Part shown: positions 8,859 through 14,400 of the stretch, in pieces | How positions within the stretch are numbered: the first letter of the stretch is position 1 | Layout: the number at the start of each line of letters is the position of its first letter | Assembly (NCBI GenBank): GCA_946482335.1 | Contig: CAMLRG010000095.1 | Span: 1 to 19,099 of the forward strand | Reading direction: 5' to 3' | Origin: an uncultured Duganella sp. | GTDB lineage: Bacteria; Pseudomonadota; Gammaproteobacteria; Burkholderiales; Burkholderiaceae | DNA: 19,099 nt | Notes under the pieces: generated by a model | Seen by the model: only the letters and a program-made list of their open reading frames with translations | Told to the model about the DNA's origin: nothing | The model's database searches: none | Position numbers and translations under genes: made by a program

Positions 8859-9308
8859 TTACAAGTGCTGCGGTAACTGCAGGATCGCTTCCGCATTGGA
8901 AGGCGAGAAGCAGCGGTCGGCGGCCTCGAGGTAGGGCAGCCAGGCGTGGGCCGTATGCTCGCGCGGGCTCAGCATGATGGGCACGTTGCGCGGCACTTGC
9001 ACGCTGAATATATGTTCCAGGTTGTGCGTGACGCCGGGGGCGTAGCGGTGACGCCAGACGGGATAGATTTCGTAGATGTTCTGCAGGCCCCAATCGCGCA
9101 GCGCGATGGCCTTGCCGTCGGCGACGATGCCGGTCTCTTCGAACAGTTCGCGGGTGGCGGTGGTGAGCAGGGGTTCGTCGATGGCGTCTTTCGAGCCGGT
9201 GACCGATTGCCAATAGCCGGGCTTGTCGGCGCGCTCGATCAGCAATACTTCCAGGTCGGCGGTGTGGATCACGACCAGGACGGATTCGGGGATTTTGTAG
9301 GGCTTCAT
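8859..9308 (-). CDS. nudB: Dihydroneopterin triphosphate pyrophosphatase (Nudix)
   Basis: 149-residue Nudix hydrolase expected to remove pyrophosphate from dihydroneopterin triphosphate, an early folate-pathway step. The Nudix box spans residues 38–61: Gly38, Glu45, then RELFEETGI (53–61) with metal-binding Glu54, Glu57 and Glu58. The Gly-to-Glu spacing is one residue longer than the textbook GX5EX7REUXEEXGU, a variant I recall as usual in betaproteobacterial NudB. The opening KIPESVLVVIHT and the motif YWQSVTGS are characteristic of NudB rather than other Nudix proteins, and the aspS–nudB pairing also occurs in other proteobacteria. The start codon lies one base from the 102-bp repeat at 9310–9411, so its whole leader, including any ribosome-binding site, is repeat-derived. 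Confidence 0.92.
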   Translation of the reverse strand: MKPYKIPESVLVVIHTADLEVLLIERADKPGYWQSVTGSKDAIDEPLLTTATRELFEETGIVADGKAIALRDWGLQNIYEIYPVWRHRYAPGVTHNLEHIFSVQVPRNVPIMLSPREHTAHAWLPYLEAADRCFSPSNAEAILQLPQHL

Positions 9309-9309
9309 A

Positions 9310-9411
9310 AAACCGTTAACCCGGTGCCTGACCCGCAGGGTCAGGCACCAACCAGCGGCGTTCGCGGGCCAAGTGTCAGACCCTGTGGGCCTGACACTGG
9401 TTCTCCGGTTT
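9310..9411. repeat. 102-bp palindromic element (copy A) between aspS and nudB
   Basis: The element fills the intergenic gap, from 1 base before the nudB ATG to the last base of the aspS stop codon. It contains a perfect 12-bp-stem hairpin (GGTGCCTGACCC–gca–GGGTCAGGCACC, 9323–9349) and a second hairpin (GTGTCAGACCC–tgt–GGGCCTGACAC, 9373–9397) with one mismatched pair. Imperfect terminal inverted repeats bracket them (AAACCGTTAACC on the left, GGTTCTCCGGTTT on the right). It aligns along its whole length with the 102-bp copy at 12638–12739; the second hairpin differs by one base, while the termini and the middle segment are less conserved. It would form a structured RNA between the aspS and nudB cistrons. 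Confidence 0.93.
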
Positions 9412-11216
9412 TAGCCAGCCACCTTCGGCTCAGCCGCACGCAGGCGGATATGCAGCTCACGCAGTTGCTTCTCGTCGACCGGCGATGGAGCGTGGGTCAG
9501 CAAGCACTGTGCGCGTTGGGTTTTCGGGAAGGCGATCACGTCGCGGATCGAATCGGACTTGGTCATCAGGGTCACGATACGGTCCAGGCCGAAGGCCAGG
9601 CCACCGTGCGGCGGCGCGCCATACTGCAGCGCATCCAGCAGGAAGCCGAACTTCTCGCGCGCTTCCTCGGCACCGATCTTCAGCGCGCGGAACACTTTCG
9701 ACTGCACTTCCTCGCGGTGGATACGGATCGAGCCGCCGCCCAGTTCCCAGCCGTTCAGCACCATGTCGTAGGCCTTGGCGATACATGCACCCGGATTGGT
9801 CTCCAGCATGTCTTCGTGGCCGTCCTTCGGCGAGGTGAACGGGTGGTGGGTCGCGGTCCAGCGGTCTTCTTCCTCGTCGTACTCGAACATCGGGAAGTCG
9901 ATCACCCACAGCGGCGCCCACACGTCGTTGAACAGGCCGTTGGCCTTGCCGAACTCGGAGTGACCGATCTTCACGCGCAGCGCGCCGATCGCATCGTTGA
10001 CGACTTTGGCCTTGTCGGCGCCGAAGAAGATCAGGTCGCCGTCCTGTGCGCCGGTCAGCTCCAGGATCTTGTTCAGTGCTTCGTCATGGATGTTCTTCAC
10101 GATCGGCGACTGCAGGCCATCGCGGCCCTTGGCCTTTTCGTTGACCTTGATGTAGGCCAGGCCCTTGGCGCCGTAGATCGCCACGAACTGGGTGTAGGCG
10201 TCGATTTCCGAACGCGGCATGTCGGCGCCTTTCGGCACGCGCATGCCGACCACGCGGCCGTTCTTCATGTTGGCGGCGCCGGAGAAGACCTTGAACTCCA
10301 CGTCTTTCATGACGTCGGTCAGGTCGGTGAATTCCAGCTTGACGCGCATGTCGGGCTTGTCCGAACCGTACTTGCCCATCGCTTCGGCGAAGTCCATCAC
10401 CGGGAACGGGTTAGGCAGGTCCACGTCCATGGTGTTCTTGAACACCTTGCGGATCATGTCTTCGAACAGGTCGCGGATCTCCTGCTCGTTCAGGAACGAG
10501 GTTTCGCAGTCGATCTGGGTGAATTCCGGCTGGCGGTCGGCGCGCAGGTCTTCGTCGCGGAAGCACTTGGTGATCTGGTAGTAGCGGTCGAAGTTGGCCA
10601 CCATCAGCAGCTGCTTGAACAGCTGCGGCGACTGCGGCAGCGCGAAGAATTCGTGGGCGTTCACGCGCGACGGCACCAGGTAGTCGCGCGCGCCTTCCGG
10701 GGTGGACTTGGTCAGCACCGGGGTTTCGATATCGATGAAGCCCAGGTTGTCCAGGTACTTGCGCACTTCCATCGACACCTTGTAGCGCAGGCGCAGGTTG
10801 TTCTGCATCTGCGGACGGCGCAGGTCCAGCACGCGGTGGGTCAGGCGCGTGGTTTCGGACAGGTTGTCGTCGTCCAGCTGGAACGGCACCGGCACGGAAG
10901 CGTTCAGCACTTCCACTTGCGAGGCGACCACTTCGATCTTGCCCGACTTGAGGTTGTTGTTGACGGTGCCCGCCAGGCGGTCTTTCACGGTGCCGGTGAC
11001 GCGCAGGCAGTACTCGTTACGCACGGATTCGGCGACTTTGAACACGTCCGCCTGGTCCGGGTTGCAGACCACCTGCACCAGGCCTTCGCGGTCGCGCAGG
11101 TCGATGAAGATCACGCCGCCGTGGTCGCGGCGACGGTGTACCCAGCCGCACAGGCTGACGGTTTGGCCTACGAGGGCTTCGGTTACGAGGCCGCAGTATT
11201 CAGTACGCATGGACAT
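9411..11216 (-). CDS. aspS: Aspartate–tRNA ligase (probably non-discriminating Asp/Asn type)
   Basis: 601-residue class IIb aminoacyl-tRNA synthetase charging tRNA-Asp. Order: anticodon-binding OB domain ([20 protein letters not shown], from about residue 24), class II catalytic core with [27 protein letters not shown] and motif 2 ([18 protein letters not shown]), a bacterial insertion (GAD) domain in the middle, and motif 3 ([15 protein letters not shown]). The length matches bacterial AspRS. The start at 11216 (MSMRTEYCG) has GAGA 6 bases upstream; Met3 is the alternative. The RRRDHGG sequence carries the His that in Pseudomonas aeruginosa AspRS marks a non-discriminating enzyme able to misacylate tRNA-Asn (E. 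coli has Leu), so a GatCAB amidotransferase is expected elsewhere. It lies 26 bp downstream of the DUF502 gene, likely the same operon. Confidence 0.97.
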
Positions 11217-12167: not shown

Positions 12168-12857
12168 TTATAAAGCTTTTTTCCGGCGCCAGGCCATCCA
12201 GCGCTCCTTGCCCTGGAATACCGGGATCGAGTCGTCCACCGCCTCGTCCCACTCCAGCTCGAAGTGGGCGCTCATTAACTGGTCGAGCTGCTGCCGGCTG
12301 GCGCCGAACGGCGGGCCCTTGGGCTGGTCGCCGAAGTAGAAGTAGCCCAGCAGGAGGCCGCCTTCCGGCAGCAGTTGCGCCCAGCGCTCGGCCACGCGCG
12401 GCCACATGTCGCGCGGCATGGCGCACAGGAAGGCGCGTTCGTAGATCACGTCCAGCGGCGCGGGCGGCTGGTATTCGAAGAAGTCGGCCAGCACCACATG
12501 CGCGCGCCAGGGCCCGACCGTCTGTTGCGCCGCAGCAACGGCGGCGGGGGAGAAGTCGATGGCGGTGGCGTCCCAGCCGGCCTGGCAGAAGGCTTGCAGC
12601 TCGTGGGCACTGCCGCAGCCGGGGATGAGGGCTGTCGAAACCGGTAAACCAGGTGTCTGACCCGCAGGGTCAGACACCGATACGCGGCGGCCGCGGGCAA
12701 GTGTCAGACCCTGTGGGTCTGACACTGGTTTACCGGTTTGTAGCCAAGCCGCCAGCTGGATCGGCACCCCACCCCGGTCCCAAGGCGTAAACGCCCCCTC
12801 GAAGCGCTGGTCCCAGAACGCCGCCGTGCGCGGATCGCGGTTAGAGAACTCGGGCAT
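12168..12857 (-). CDS. TPMT-family SAM-dependent methyltransferase carrying a repeat-encoded insert
   Basis: 229-residue class I methyltransferase related to the thiopurine S-methyltransferase family. Visible are [19 protein letters not shown] (residues 14–32), motif [13 protein letters not shown] (76–87), the acidic SAM-ribose motif AIDFSPAAV, and the TPMT-type [17 protein letters not shown] and [19 protein letters not shown] segments. The start at 12857 is preferred over 12908 because family homology begins there; it overlaps the 3' end of ubiB by 17 bp. Residues about 40–74 ([10 protein letters not shown]…GLPVS) are encoded by a 102-bp palindromic repeat and lie between the substrate-binding N-terminus and motif I. 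Without the insert the protein would have about 195 residues and read [11 protein letters not shown], close to normal homologs. Whether the enzyme still works is unknown. Substrate unassigned. Confidence 0.88.
12638..12739. repeat. 102-bp palindromic element (copy B) inserted in frame in a methyltransferase gene
   Basis: Perfect 13-bp terminal inverted repeats (AAACCGGTAAACC at 12638–12650 and its complement at 12727–12739) enclose two hairpins: GGTGTCTGACCC–gca–GGGTCAGACACC (12652–12678, perfect 12-bp stem) and GTGTCAGACCC–tgt–GGGTCTGACAC (12701–12725, perfect 11-bp stem). Between them is a small GCGGC-G-GCCGC palindrome. It has the same length and plan as copy A at 9310–9411. Because 102 bp is 34 codons and the minus-strand frame has no stop, the methyltransferase reads straight through it. 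Confidence 0.95.
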
Positions 12858-14400
12858 AAACCTGGTACGCCACCGCGCCGACCACAAACGCGCCCACAAA
12901 GAACACAAAGAACGACATCAGCCGGTTGGTATGCCGCTGCTCCGCCACCAGTTGCGCCAGCAAGACCTTGGTATCCACGTCCCGCTCAGCCGCCAGGGTT
13001 AGCGCCTGGTGCGCCAGCCGAGGCAATTGCGGGAAGATGTGCGAATACCTCGGCGCTTCCGCCTTCAAGCGCTCAATGAAACCGCGCCACCCCACCTGCT
13101 CCGCCATCCAGCGTTCCAGGTAAGGCTTGGCCGTCTTCCACAAATCCAGGTCCGGATCGAGCTGACGGCCCAGGCCCTCGATATTCAGCAGGGTCTTTTG
13201 CAGCAGCACCAACTGCGGCTGCACTTCCACATTGAAGCGGCGCGAAGTCTGGAACAGCCGCAGCAGCACCTGGCCGAACGAAATATCCTTCAAGGGGCGG
13301 TCGAAGATCGGTTCGCAGCAGGCGCGCACCGCCGCCTCCAGTTCGTCCACCCGGGTTTCCTTGGGCGCCCAGCCGGACTCGATGTGCGCCTCGGCCACGC
13401 GCTTGTAGTCGCGGCGGAAGAAGGCCAGGAAGTTTTGCGACAGGTAATCCTTGTCGTAATCGTTCAGGGTACCGACGATGCCGAAGTCCAGCGCGATATA
13501 GCGCCCGAACGTCTCCGGCTCGATCGACACCAAAATATTACCCGGGTGCATGTCCGCGTGGAAGAAGCCATCGCGGAACACTTGCGTGAAAAAGATTTCC
13601 ACGCCATCGGTGGACAGCTTTTTCAGGTCCACGCCCGCCTCGACCAGGCGCGCAGTCTGCGATACCGGGATGCCATGCATGCGCTCCATCACGATCACAT
13701 TGCTCGAGCAATAATCCCAGTACATCTCCGGCACCAGCAGCAGGCGCGATTCGGCAAAGTTGCGGCGCAATTGGCTGGCGTTGGCGGCCTCGCGCATCAA
13801 GTCCAGTTCATCGTGCAGGTATTTGTCGAATTCCTGCACCACTTCCTGGATCTTCAGGCGCTTGGAATCGGCCCACACATGGTTGATGAAGTTGGCCGCG
13901 ATATGCATCAGCGCCACGTCTTCATCGATCAGCTTCTTCATGCCCGGACGCAGCACCTTGACCGCCACCTGGGTGCCATCTTTCAGCGCGGCAAAATGCA
14001 CCTGCGCGATGGAAGCCGAGGCCACCGGCACGCGTTCGAAGCGCGCGAACAATTCATCCGGATGCGCCCCGAGCGAGGCTTCGATCATCGCGATTGCCAG
14101 GTCGGAGTCGAACGGCGGCACGCGGTCCTGCAGCTTGGACAGCTCGGCCACGATATCGAGCGGGAACAGGTCGCTGCGGGTCGACAGCACCTGGCCGAAC
14201 TTGACGAAGATCGGGCCCAGCTCTTCCAGCGCGCGGCGCAGGCGCACTGCGCGCGGCGTGGACAGGTCGCGCCAGAAGAAGACCACATCGAGGAATTTGC
14301 TGATGCGCGGCTTGTCGAAGCCGGAAATGGCGATTTCGTCCAGCCCATAGCGGACGGAGACACGGACAATCTTGAGCAGCCGGAGGAATTTGCGGATCAT
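12841..14400 (-). CDS. ubiB: Ubiquinone biosynthesis atypical kinase/ATPase UbiB
   Basis: 519-residue member of the ABC1/ADCK/UbiB protein-kinase-like family, needed for ubiquinone synthesis, probably as an ATPase that helps extract or deliver lipid intermediates to the Ubi complex. Diagnostic motifs are the KxGQ motif (Lys67 to Gln70 in [13 protein letters not shown]), the Ala-rich nucleotide loop ([10 protein letters not shown], 126–135), Lys148 in VAVKVLRPG, the catalytic loop [13 protein letters not shown] (277–289) with Asp283 and Asn288, and the DFG at 305–307. The C-terminus has a hydrophobic tail (about 494–516) that anchors it in the inner membrane. It is slightly shorter than E. coli UbiB. 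Its ATG overlaps the ubiJ stop (ATGA), and the ubiE–ubiJ–ubiB order of enterobacteria is kept, with a Tim44-like gene inserted. Confidence 0.97.

Follow-up and report, generated by a model that had tools for sequence, protein, structure and literature searches.

The 102-bp palindromic element that lies in the reading frame of a TPMT-like methyltransferase gene of an uncultured Duganella sp. is best read as a RAYT-associated, REPIN-like repeat doublet rather than as a coding palindrome of the Rickettsia type. With a probability of roughly 0.8, we regard the insert as a non-autonomous RAYT-associated doublet, an ancestral copy of which came to lie in each of two genes and later lost hairpins or changed class, with the reading frame being kept. 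A twin hairpin with perfect terminal inverted repeats, free of stop codons in the methyltransferase frame, had been claimed in a preliminary description of this DNA and can be read directly from the window, as we call the whole stretch of 19,099 nucleotides that was analysed. The second 102-bp copy mentioned there was located as well, between a nudix-like ORF and aspS (Table 1).

Table 1. Positions of the repeats and of the genes around them in the window
Feature	Position	Strand	Context or basis
Nudix-like ORF	8859-9308		
Second R1 doublet, 102 nt	9310..9411	.	gap between nudix-like ORF and aspS
Hairpins of the second doublet	9324-9348 (2 mismatches), 9373-9397 (1 mismatch)		R1 pattern scan
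aspS	9411-11216		
TPMT-like SAM-dependent methyltransferase, 229 aa, bears the element in frame	12168..12857	-	ORF, Pfam
R1 doublet (REPIN-like), two hairpins, arms outward, 102 bp	12638..12739	.	in the methyltransferase reading frame
Left arm AAACCGGTAAACCAG	12638..12652	+	family arm consensus
Hairpin 1, GTGTCTGACCC-GCA-GGGTCAGACAC	12653..12677	+	0 mismatches to R1 pattern
Hairpin 2, GTGTCAGACCC-TGT-GGGTCTGACAC	12701..12725	+	0 mismatches to R1 pattern
Right arm, inverted copy of the left arm, AAACCGGTAAACCA on the minus strand	12726..12739	-	strand comparison

The element in the methyltransferase gene begins with AAACCGGTAAACC at position 12638 and finishes with GGTTTACCGGTTT at 12739, and comparison of both strands shows its terminal repeats to match over 15 nt without a difference. 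Both hairpins have an 11-3-11 architecture and start 48 nt apart. They belong to the class R1, which is described by the pattern AAACCGGTAAACC(A/G) plus GTGTCWGACCC-nnn-GGGTCWGACAC; a second class, R2, follows the pattern GGGTCNGACCC-nn-GGGTCNGACCC. Two inverted units close together, as in a REPIN, are found in the window and in the two-hairpin clusters of relatives. Folded as single-stranded DNA, the element reaches -45.6 kcal/mol on the plus and -43.0 kcal/mol on the minus strand, and none of 200 shuffles per strand folded as well (z = -9.9 and -10.9, respectively). A comparison of the window with Rfam gave no match at gathering score. The two 102-nt copies start 3328 bp apart, and the outermost base of the intergenic one is the final base of the aspS stop codon. 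Repeats are present at the aspS 3' end in the window and in three relatives, and a plain GC hairpin is found there in three others. This GC hairpin of the three repeat-less relatives (loci L196, L197 and L200) is terminator-like, and the impression at the aspS 3' end is one of terminators being replaced or taken over by repeats.

We searched for the exact hairpin (pattern GTGTCWGACCCNNNGGGTCWGACAC) in 294 genomes of the same family, sampled evenly. It was detected in six of them, with 69, 33, 27, 20, 14 and 13 copies, and was absent from the other 288 sampled family genomes; the reversed pattern, used as a control, had no match in any of the 294. If up to 3 mismatches are allowed, genome G001 contains 138 hairpins, and at least 10 exact hairpins were found with a narrower pattern in G329, a seventh relative. 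The methyltransferase had a match in 168 of the 294 genomes, and the six hairpin-bearing genomes were the six best matches. All seven hairpin-bearing relatives belong to Duganella/Pseudoduganella, a group of soil bacteria. A dispersed palindromic element in an Oxalobacteraceae-like group, as suggested in the preliminary description, is supported by the copies in seven relatives. Two observations had been named there as speaking against such an element, namely a genome without other copies and homologs in distant genera with the same residues encoded by unrelated DNA; other copies occur in the relatives and in the window, and no such homologs were seen. The high-copy dispersal of RAYT-associated REPs (Nunvar 2010) is also seen in the relatives, and the GT(A/G)G head preceding the palindrome is not in the arm consensus AAACCGGTAAACC(A/G). 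Genome-wide, arms of the two classes differ in the base ahead of CCGG, which is A in 164 of 180 R1 arms and C in 44 of 74 R2 arms.

Most copies lie between genes. In 1.36 Mb from 121 sources, we analysed 156 distinct clusters, excluding one edge cluster; the genes around them were called by our own script. In this sample, which is biased because contexts were chosen for holding hairpins, four clusters lie within a called gene, 149 are not read through any gene and seven are read through the methyltransferase or TyrA. A second batch of contexts was chosen by repeat-peptide score or long-frame reading, loci L196-L202 were chosen deliberately for the methyltransferase, and the contexts from G001 cover 50 of its 69 hairpin places. 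The neighbouring genes are oriented -- at 62 clusters, ++ at 43, +- at 40 and -+ at 6, with one unresolved. A canonical arm is present at 234 of 312 cluster ends, and for 81 of these 234 arms the distance to a stop codon is -3 to 4 nt. The hairpin is 11-15 nt from the stop at 81 of 186 facing gene ends compared to 42.1 expected for uniform placement in the residual gap, so that tight gaps account for about half of the stop-codon abutment. At one slot (118), the TAA is already present in the empty relatives and the element sits after the TAA in G069.

The repeats are linked to a tyrosine transposase. Matches to PF01797 (Y1_Tnp) above the Pfam cut-off were found at 37 loci in six genomes, 30 of which were examined for flanking hairpins. 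Among these 30, R1 is found on both sides of the transposase gene at L078, L083 and L098, R2 on both sides at L075 and L076 and on one side at L077, and neither class at the other 24 at up to 2 mismatches. The transposase locus of G329 (L222) has R1 on both sides. By genome, R1 flanks both sides in G001, G069, G157 and G329, R2 flanks both sides in G002 and G221, and in G284 R2 is found on one side at up to 2 mismatches. The seven bordered transposases share 60-85% pairwise identity, and their best NCBIfam match is REP_Tyr_transpos with 71.8 bits against a cut-off of 80. Common neighbouring sequence was detected at six of the seven loci; L076 was unmatched, and its flank is similar. The four R1 transposases cluster together in their tree with a support of 91, and the three R2 transposases do so with only 54. 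A RAYT-like gene, inverted repeats without GTAG and a dispersed family, which together characterize the TIRs of TIRYTs, are all present. The species tree places G221 (R2) beside G001 (R1) with a support of 91, and support at its deep nodes is low (35 and 44). Transposase type pairs with the flanking repeat class and not with the species tree, as if transposase and repeat class had been exchanged as a pair at one locus (L075-L078, L083, L098 and L222). Which class a coding slot holds is not predicted by the resident transposase: G157 combines an R1 transposase with R2 in the methyltransferase, and G002 an R2 transposase with R1 in both genes.

The methyltransferase matches the Pfam family TPMT (PF05724) with an E value of 7e-28, and its matches to the NCBIfam thiopurine methyltransferase models are far below the cut-off. 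The ORF listing also gives a longer form (12168-12908) in addition to the one with 229 residues. Its reading frame runs without a stop across the insert. A hairpin-free ortholog is present in G221, where the corresponding gap measures 26 nt compared to 113 nt in the window. The claim of an in-frame insertion holds, but not that of exactly 34 added codons: the window site exceeds the G221 site by 87 nt, or 29 codons, and not by 102. Neither does removal of 34 codons, which had been expected to restore a normal homolog, reproduce the G221 site. AlphaFold2 (71 sequences) modelled the methyltransferase with a mean pLDDT of 85.7. The insert residues 41-70 have block values of 56, 52 and 48, compared to 77-98 for the remaining blocks, and are placed between a helix and the strand that precedes the LIPGCG motif. 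The model fits a tolerated loop, and translation of the insert is expected to give a hydrophilic and probably disordered one. Five related loci were found in genome contigs, the closest being those of Duganella sp. Root1480D1 and Root336D2 with 73-74% identity. The codon slot is occupied by the R2 class in some relatives, and other repeat-like peptides are found in other proteins of the Massilia group. The same linker of Massilia-group proteins P0084, P0095, P0078, P0099 and P0109 holds such inserts, among them FPRKRES (P0084), an RPTG-type peptide and a tandem VAxQPPAV (P0078 and P0109).

In-frame copies in several genomes were found in two genes, the methyltransferase and a TyrA-like prephenate dehydrogenase, and the repeats are read in the identical frame in both (VSDPxGQT). 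We read the coding slots in eight genomes for the methyltransferase and in seven for TyrA. At the methyltransferase slot, two R1 hairpins are present in the window, one in each of G001, G002 and G284, two R2 hairpins in G157, R2 with two overlapping matches in G329, one R2 hairpin in G069 and none in G221, so that six of seven related genomes carry an insert. At the TyrA slot, G001 and G157 have two R1 hairpins, G002 and G069 have one, G284 has two of class R2, and short arm-like remnants are left in G221 and G329. A screen of 181 clusters with a broad pattern yielded ten rows, representing the methyltransferase in four genomes, TyrA in three, a patatin-like candidate in one and two rejected cases; of the seven rows for the two genes, four loci had been deliberately chosen or were the window itself. 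A second screen of 212 clusters, in which the R2 pattern at 2 mismatches takes in R1 copies too, extended the list to three further genomes for the methyltransferase and two for TyrA, and yielded an N-terminal candidate in FlgI. Two rows from L121 and those from L125, L169 and L291 were rejected by eye for upstream reading or no two-sided coding support. The patatin-like candidate in G284 (L264:3010-3126) is an in-frame repeat that separates the signal peptide from the GGGARG part in a protein that is presumably patatin-like, judging from its motifs. The other candidate lies in G221 (L156:5272-5340), in frame just ahead of the signal peptide of a protein that we take to be FlgI-like, where a start codon past the repeat is possible.

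Between genomes, gap lengths differ by multiples of three or not at all in 49 of 49 pairs at the two coding slots and in 76 of 249 at other slots, which is a descriptive figure without p-value since the pairs share ancestry and are not independent. Database proteins have a similar length spread at both coding slots (best 120 of 4176 and best 120 of 8000), and 30 TyrA loci among 74 genomes were compared. In total, 126 slots were recorded and 36 were readable in at least three genomes. Fourteen of these held R1 and R2, seven held R1, R2 and empty states, eight held R1 and empty states and seven held R1 only. Both classes thus occur at 21 of 36 slots, and the seven with R1, R2 and empty states include both coding slots. 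Changes of class within a slot are seen in many places, and the two coding slots show them in the same way, with the open frame as an extra condition. The base before CCGG is C in three of four in-gene R2 copies (the exception being the methyltransferase of G069) and A in seven of eight in-gene R1 copies (the exception being TyrA of G157). These class-typical arms favour replacement of whole units. However, the R2-like methyltransferase copy of G069 has an R1-like arm and the R1 copy in TyrA of G157 an R2-like arm, so that mosaic change is possible. One-hairpin forms of the methyltransferase retain both outer arms, and a remnant in G221 at slot 38 consists of two fused arms; deletion between repeats is the simplest reading of hairpin loss. 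A new class could have entered an old slot via gene conversion, re-insertion or RAYT-mediated copying.

Based on these observations, we propose that a tyrosine transposase encoded at one locus most likely copies R1 units around the genome, with most copies settling between genes and frequently directly after a stop codon. The ancestor of the group would have gained one copy in the methyltransferase stretch that joins a helix to the first strand, and a second ancestral copy would have landed in a loop of the TyrA-like prephenate dehydrogenase; each slot is common to most relatives. In both genes, the predicted product of its translation is a hydrophilic loop that is probably disordered. The slots may later have lost hairpins, from two to one to a remnant, or switched from R1 to R2 or back, and only frame-open states are seen at the coding slots. 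The weak deep nodes of the species tree (35 and 44) would also allow several insertions in place of one ancestral event. More tentatively, the RAYT system could overwrite resident units, coding ones included, with units of the other class, whereby slot and frame would persist. If true, a protein loop would be repeatedly rewritten from the mobile repeat pool of the genome during speciation. It is rather doubtful that the loop is instead a hot spot for repeated independent insertion, at which each species gained its own R1 or R2 at the same codon. Different classes at one slot in related species would agree with such a history, as would FPRKRES (P0084), VAxQPPAV (P0078 and P0109) and QVAATxWQPP (P0064) in the same linker of other lineages. 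However, the arm-like TyrA remnants in G221 and G329 and the outer arms kept in one-hairpin methyltransferase forms argue against it, and both classes at 21 of 36 slots, a biased fraction as the loci were chosen for hairpins, point to conserved slots with turnover.

The in-gene hairpins could also be kept for a role at the DNA or RNA level, such as attenuation, mRNA stability or protein binding, with the peptide as a by-product. The stems indeed remain paired despite a third-position difference of 19-32% in the methyltransferase between genomes: 97.7% of stem cells are paired in 8 distinct in-gene R1 hairpins, two pairs have changed on both sides, and this level of pairing was reached by 10 of 500 shuffles. 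Still, just 8 distinct rows carry little weight, class exchange or recent copying explain the pairing equally well, and the G221 gene has no hairpin, which makes this explanation unlikely. We consider it quite improbable that a selfish coding palindrome as in Rickettsia, selected for a tolerable peptide, spreads through genes, even if the VSDPxGQT frame is common to two unrelated genes and most complete two-hairpin R1 elements (46 of 49) offer one or more open frames among the six, with 16 of the 49 being divisible by three in length. The four of 156 clusters inside a called gene argue against it, as do the ten rows obtained from 181 clusters, seven of them in two genes, one a candidate and two rejected. 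That the insert results from a sequencing or assembly artefact or marks a decaying pseudogene is hardly credible: a single window represents the source genome, but inserts at the same slot are found in six of seven relatives and in many database proteins, the frame is intact, and the motif residues of the methyltransferase are conserved in the alignment of 71 sequences.

REPIN doublets were reportedly described by Bertels and Rainey in 2011, RepRanger is said to cover bacteria and archaea, and PARCEL elements are said to be small repeats that add residues to ORFs. According to the cited excerpts, RAYT-associated REPs are defined by a GT(A/G)G head (Nunvar 2010, PMC2817692), and RAYTs are flanked by inverted REPs, with different REP classes around syntenic RAYTs (PMC2817692; Nunvar 2013, PMC3686654). 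R1 and R2 share with this system, as far as these excerpts describe it, the short palindrome, the inverted doublets, the mostly extragenic location, the RAYT-like gene between two inverted units and the different REP classes of related strains around syntenic RAYTs (orthogroups). In contrast, R1 has a 13-nt arm, AAACCGGTAAACC, instead of the GT(A/G)G head, and R1/R2 occur in frame within two genes across species. In the excerpts of Di Nocera 2013 (PMC3733652), RAYT-like genes (TIRYT) are bordered by untagged TIRs, and our repeats resemble these as inverted repeats without GTAG tag that are partly self-complementary and form a dispersed family. However, the GGGGWSAS motif given there is not in the R1 arm consensus, and the excerpts name no species of the Duganella group. 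The R1 element is closest to the untagged TIR-repeat type, though built like a REPIN.

REPs inside ORFs of several bacteria, with dimers that encode 20-30 residues, are described in the same excerpts (PMC3733652), as are REP ends that supply stop codons, a preference for gene 3' ends and the case of recB in two Xanthomonas species, where roughly one position is occupied by different REPs. The view that a palindrome tolerated in proteins would be new outside Rickettsia is thus not supported; both intragenic REPs and stop codons supplied by REPs have been published, and the element is ordinary in kind. The less familiar part is the in-place exchange of palindrome classes at conserved slots, two of which are coding. 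Compared to the intragenic REPs in those excerpts, class and hairpin number were tracked here for two genes in seven to eight genomes, and remnants and a comparison of frames were added. Rickettsia palindromic elements, which had been named as the known precedent, are not supported as the nearest one; they measure about 150 bp and are frequent in genes according to excerpts of PMC10969869 and PMC3733652. They resemble our case as palindromes in frame within protein genes. However, the relatives show a RAYT-linked, mostly extragenic repeat with R1/R2 units bordering a transposase gene, and coding copies are exceptional: rather than frequent in-frame insertions in many unrelated genes, we found two recurrent genes and two candidates in the screened clusters of relatives. 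QMITE of Coxiella (PMC5896051, in excerpt) is a small repeat element that adds residues to ORFs; going by descriptions only, it and PARCEL differ from R1 and R2 in size and organisation. Among the literature matches listed, no paper concerned REPs in Duganella/Pseudoduganella.

REPs are usually treated as extragenic. The two coding slots provide a natural series of shortening, remnants and class exchange against an intact frame, which makes in-place replacement of RAYT-linked repeats testable, as well as the feeding of disordered protein loops by mobile repeats. In addition, the stop-codon abutment offers a defined in vitro target for the transposase. In another lineage, the peptide QVAATxWQPP and near-matches to it are found at both slots, in the methyltransferases P0064 and P0054 and in the TyrA proteins P0144, P0148 and P0147, P0054 and P0147 being the near-matches. 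This shared peptide is possibly derived from a third palindrome class; the pattern GTGGCWGCCAC-nnn-GTGGCWGCCAC at 1 mismatch had no match in 74 genomes, a sample that may exclude the species encoding these proteins. Finally, the window contains a further inverted repeat of 38 nt at 2369-2450, in the gap preceding 2455, which is 92% complementary with a 6-nt loop and unlike R1 and R2 in sequence.
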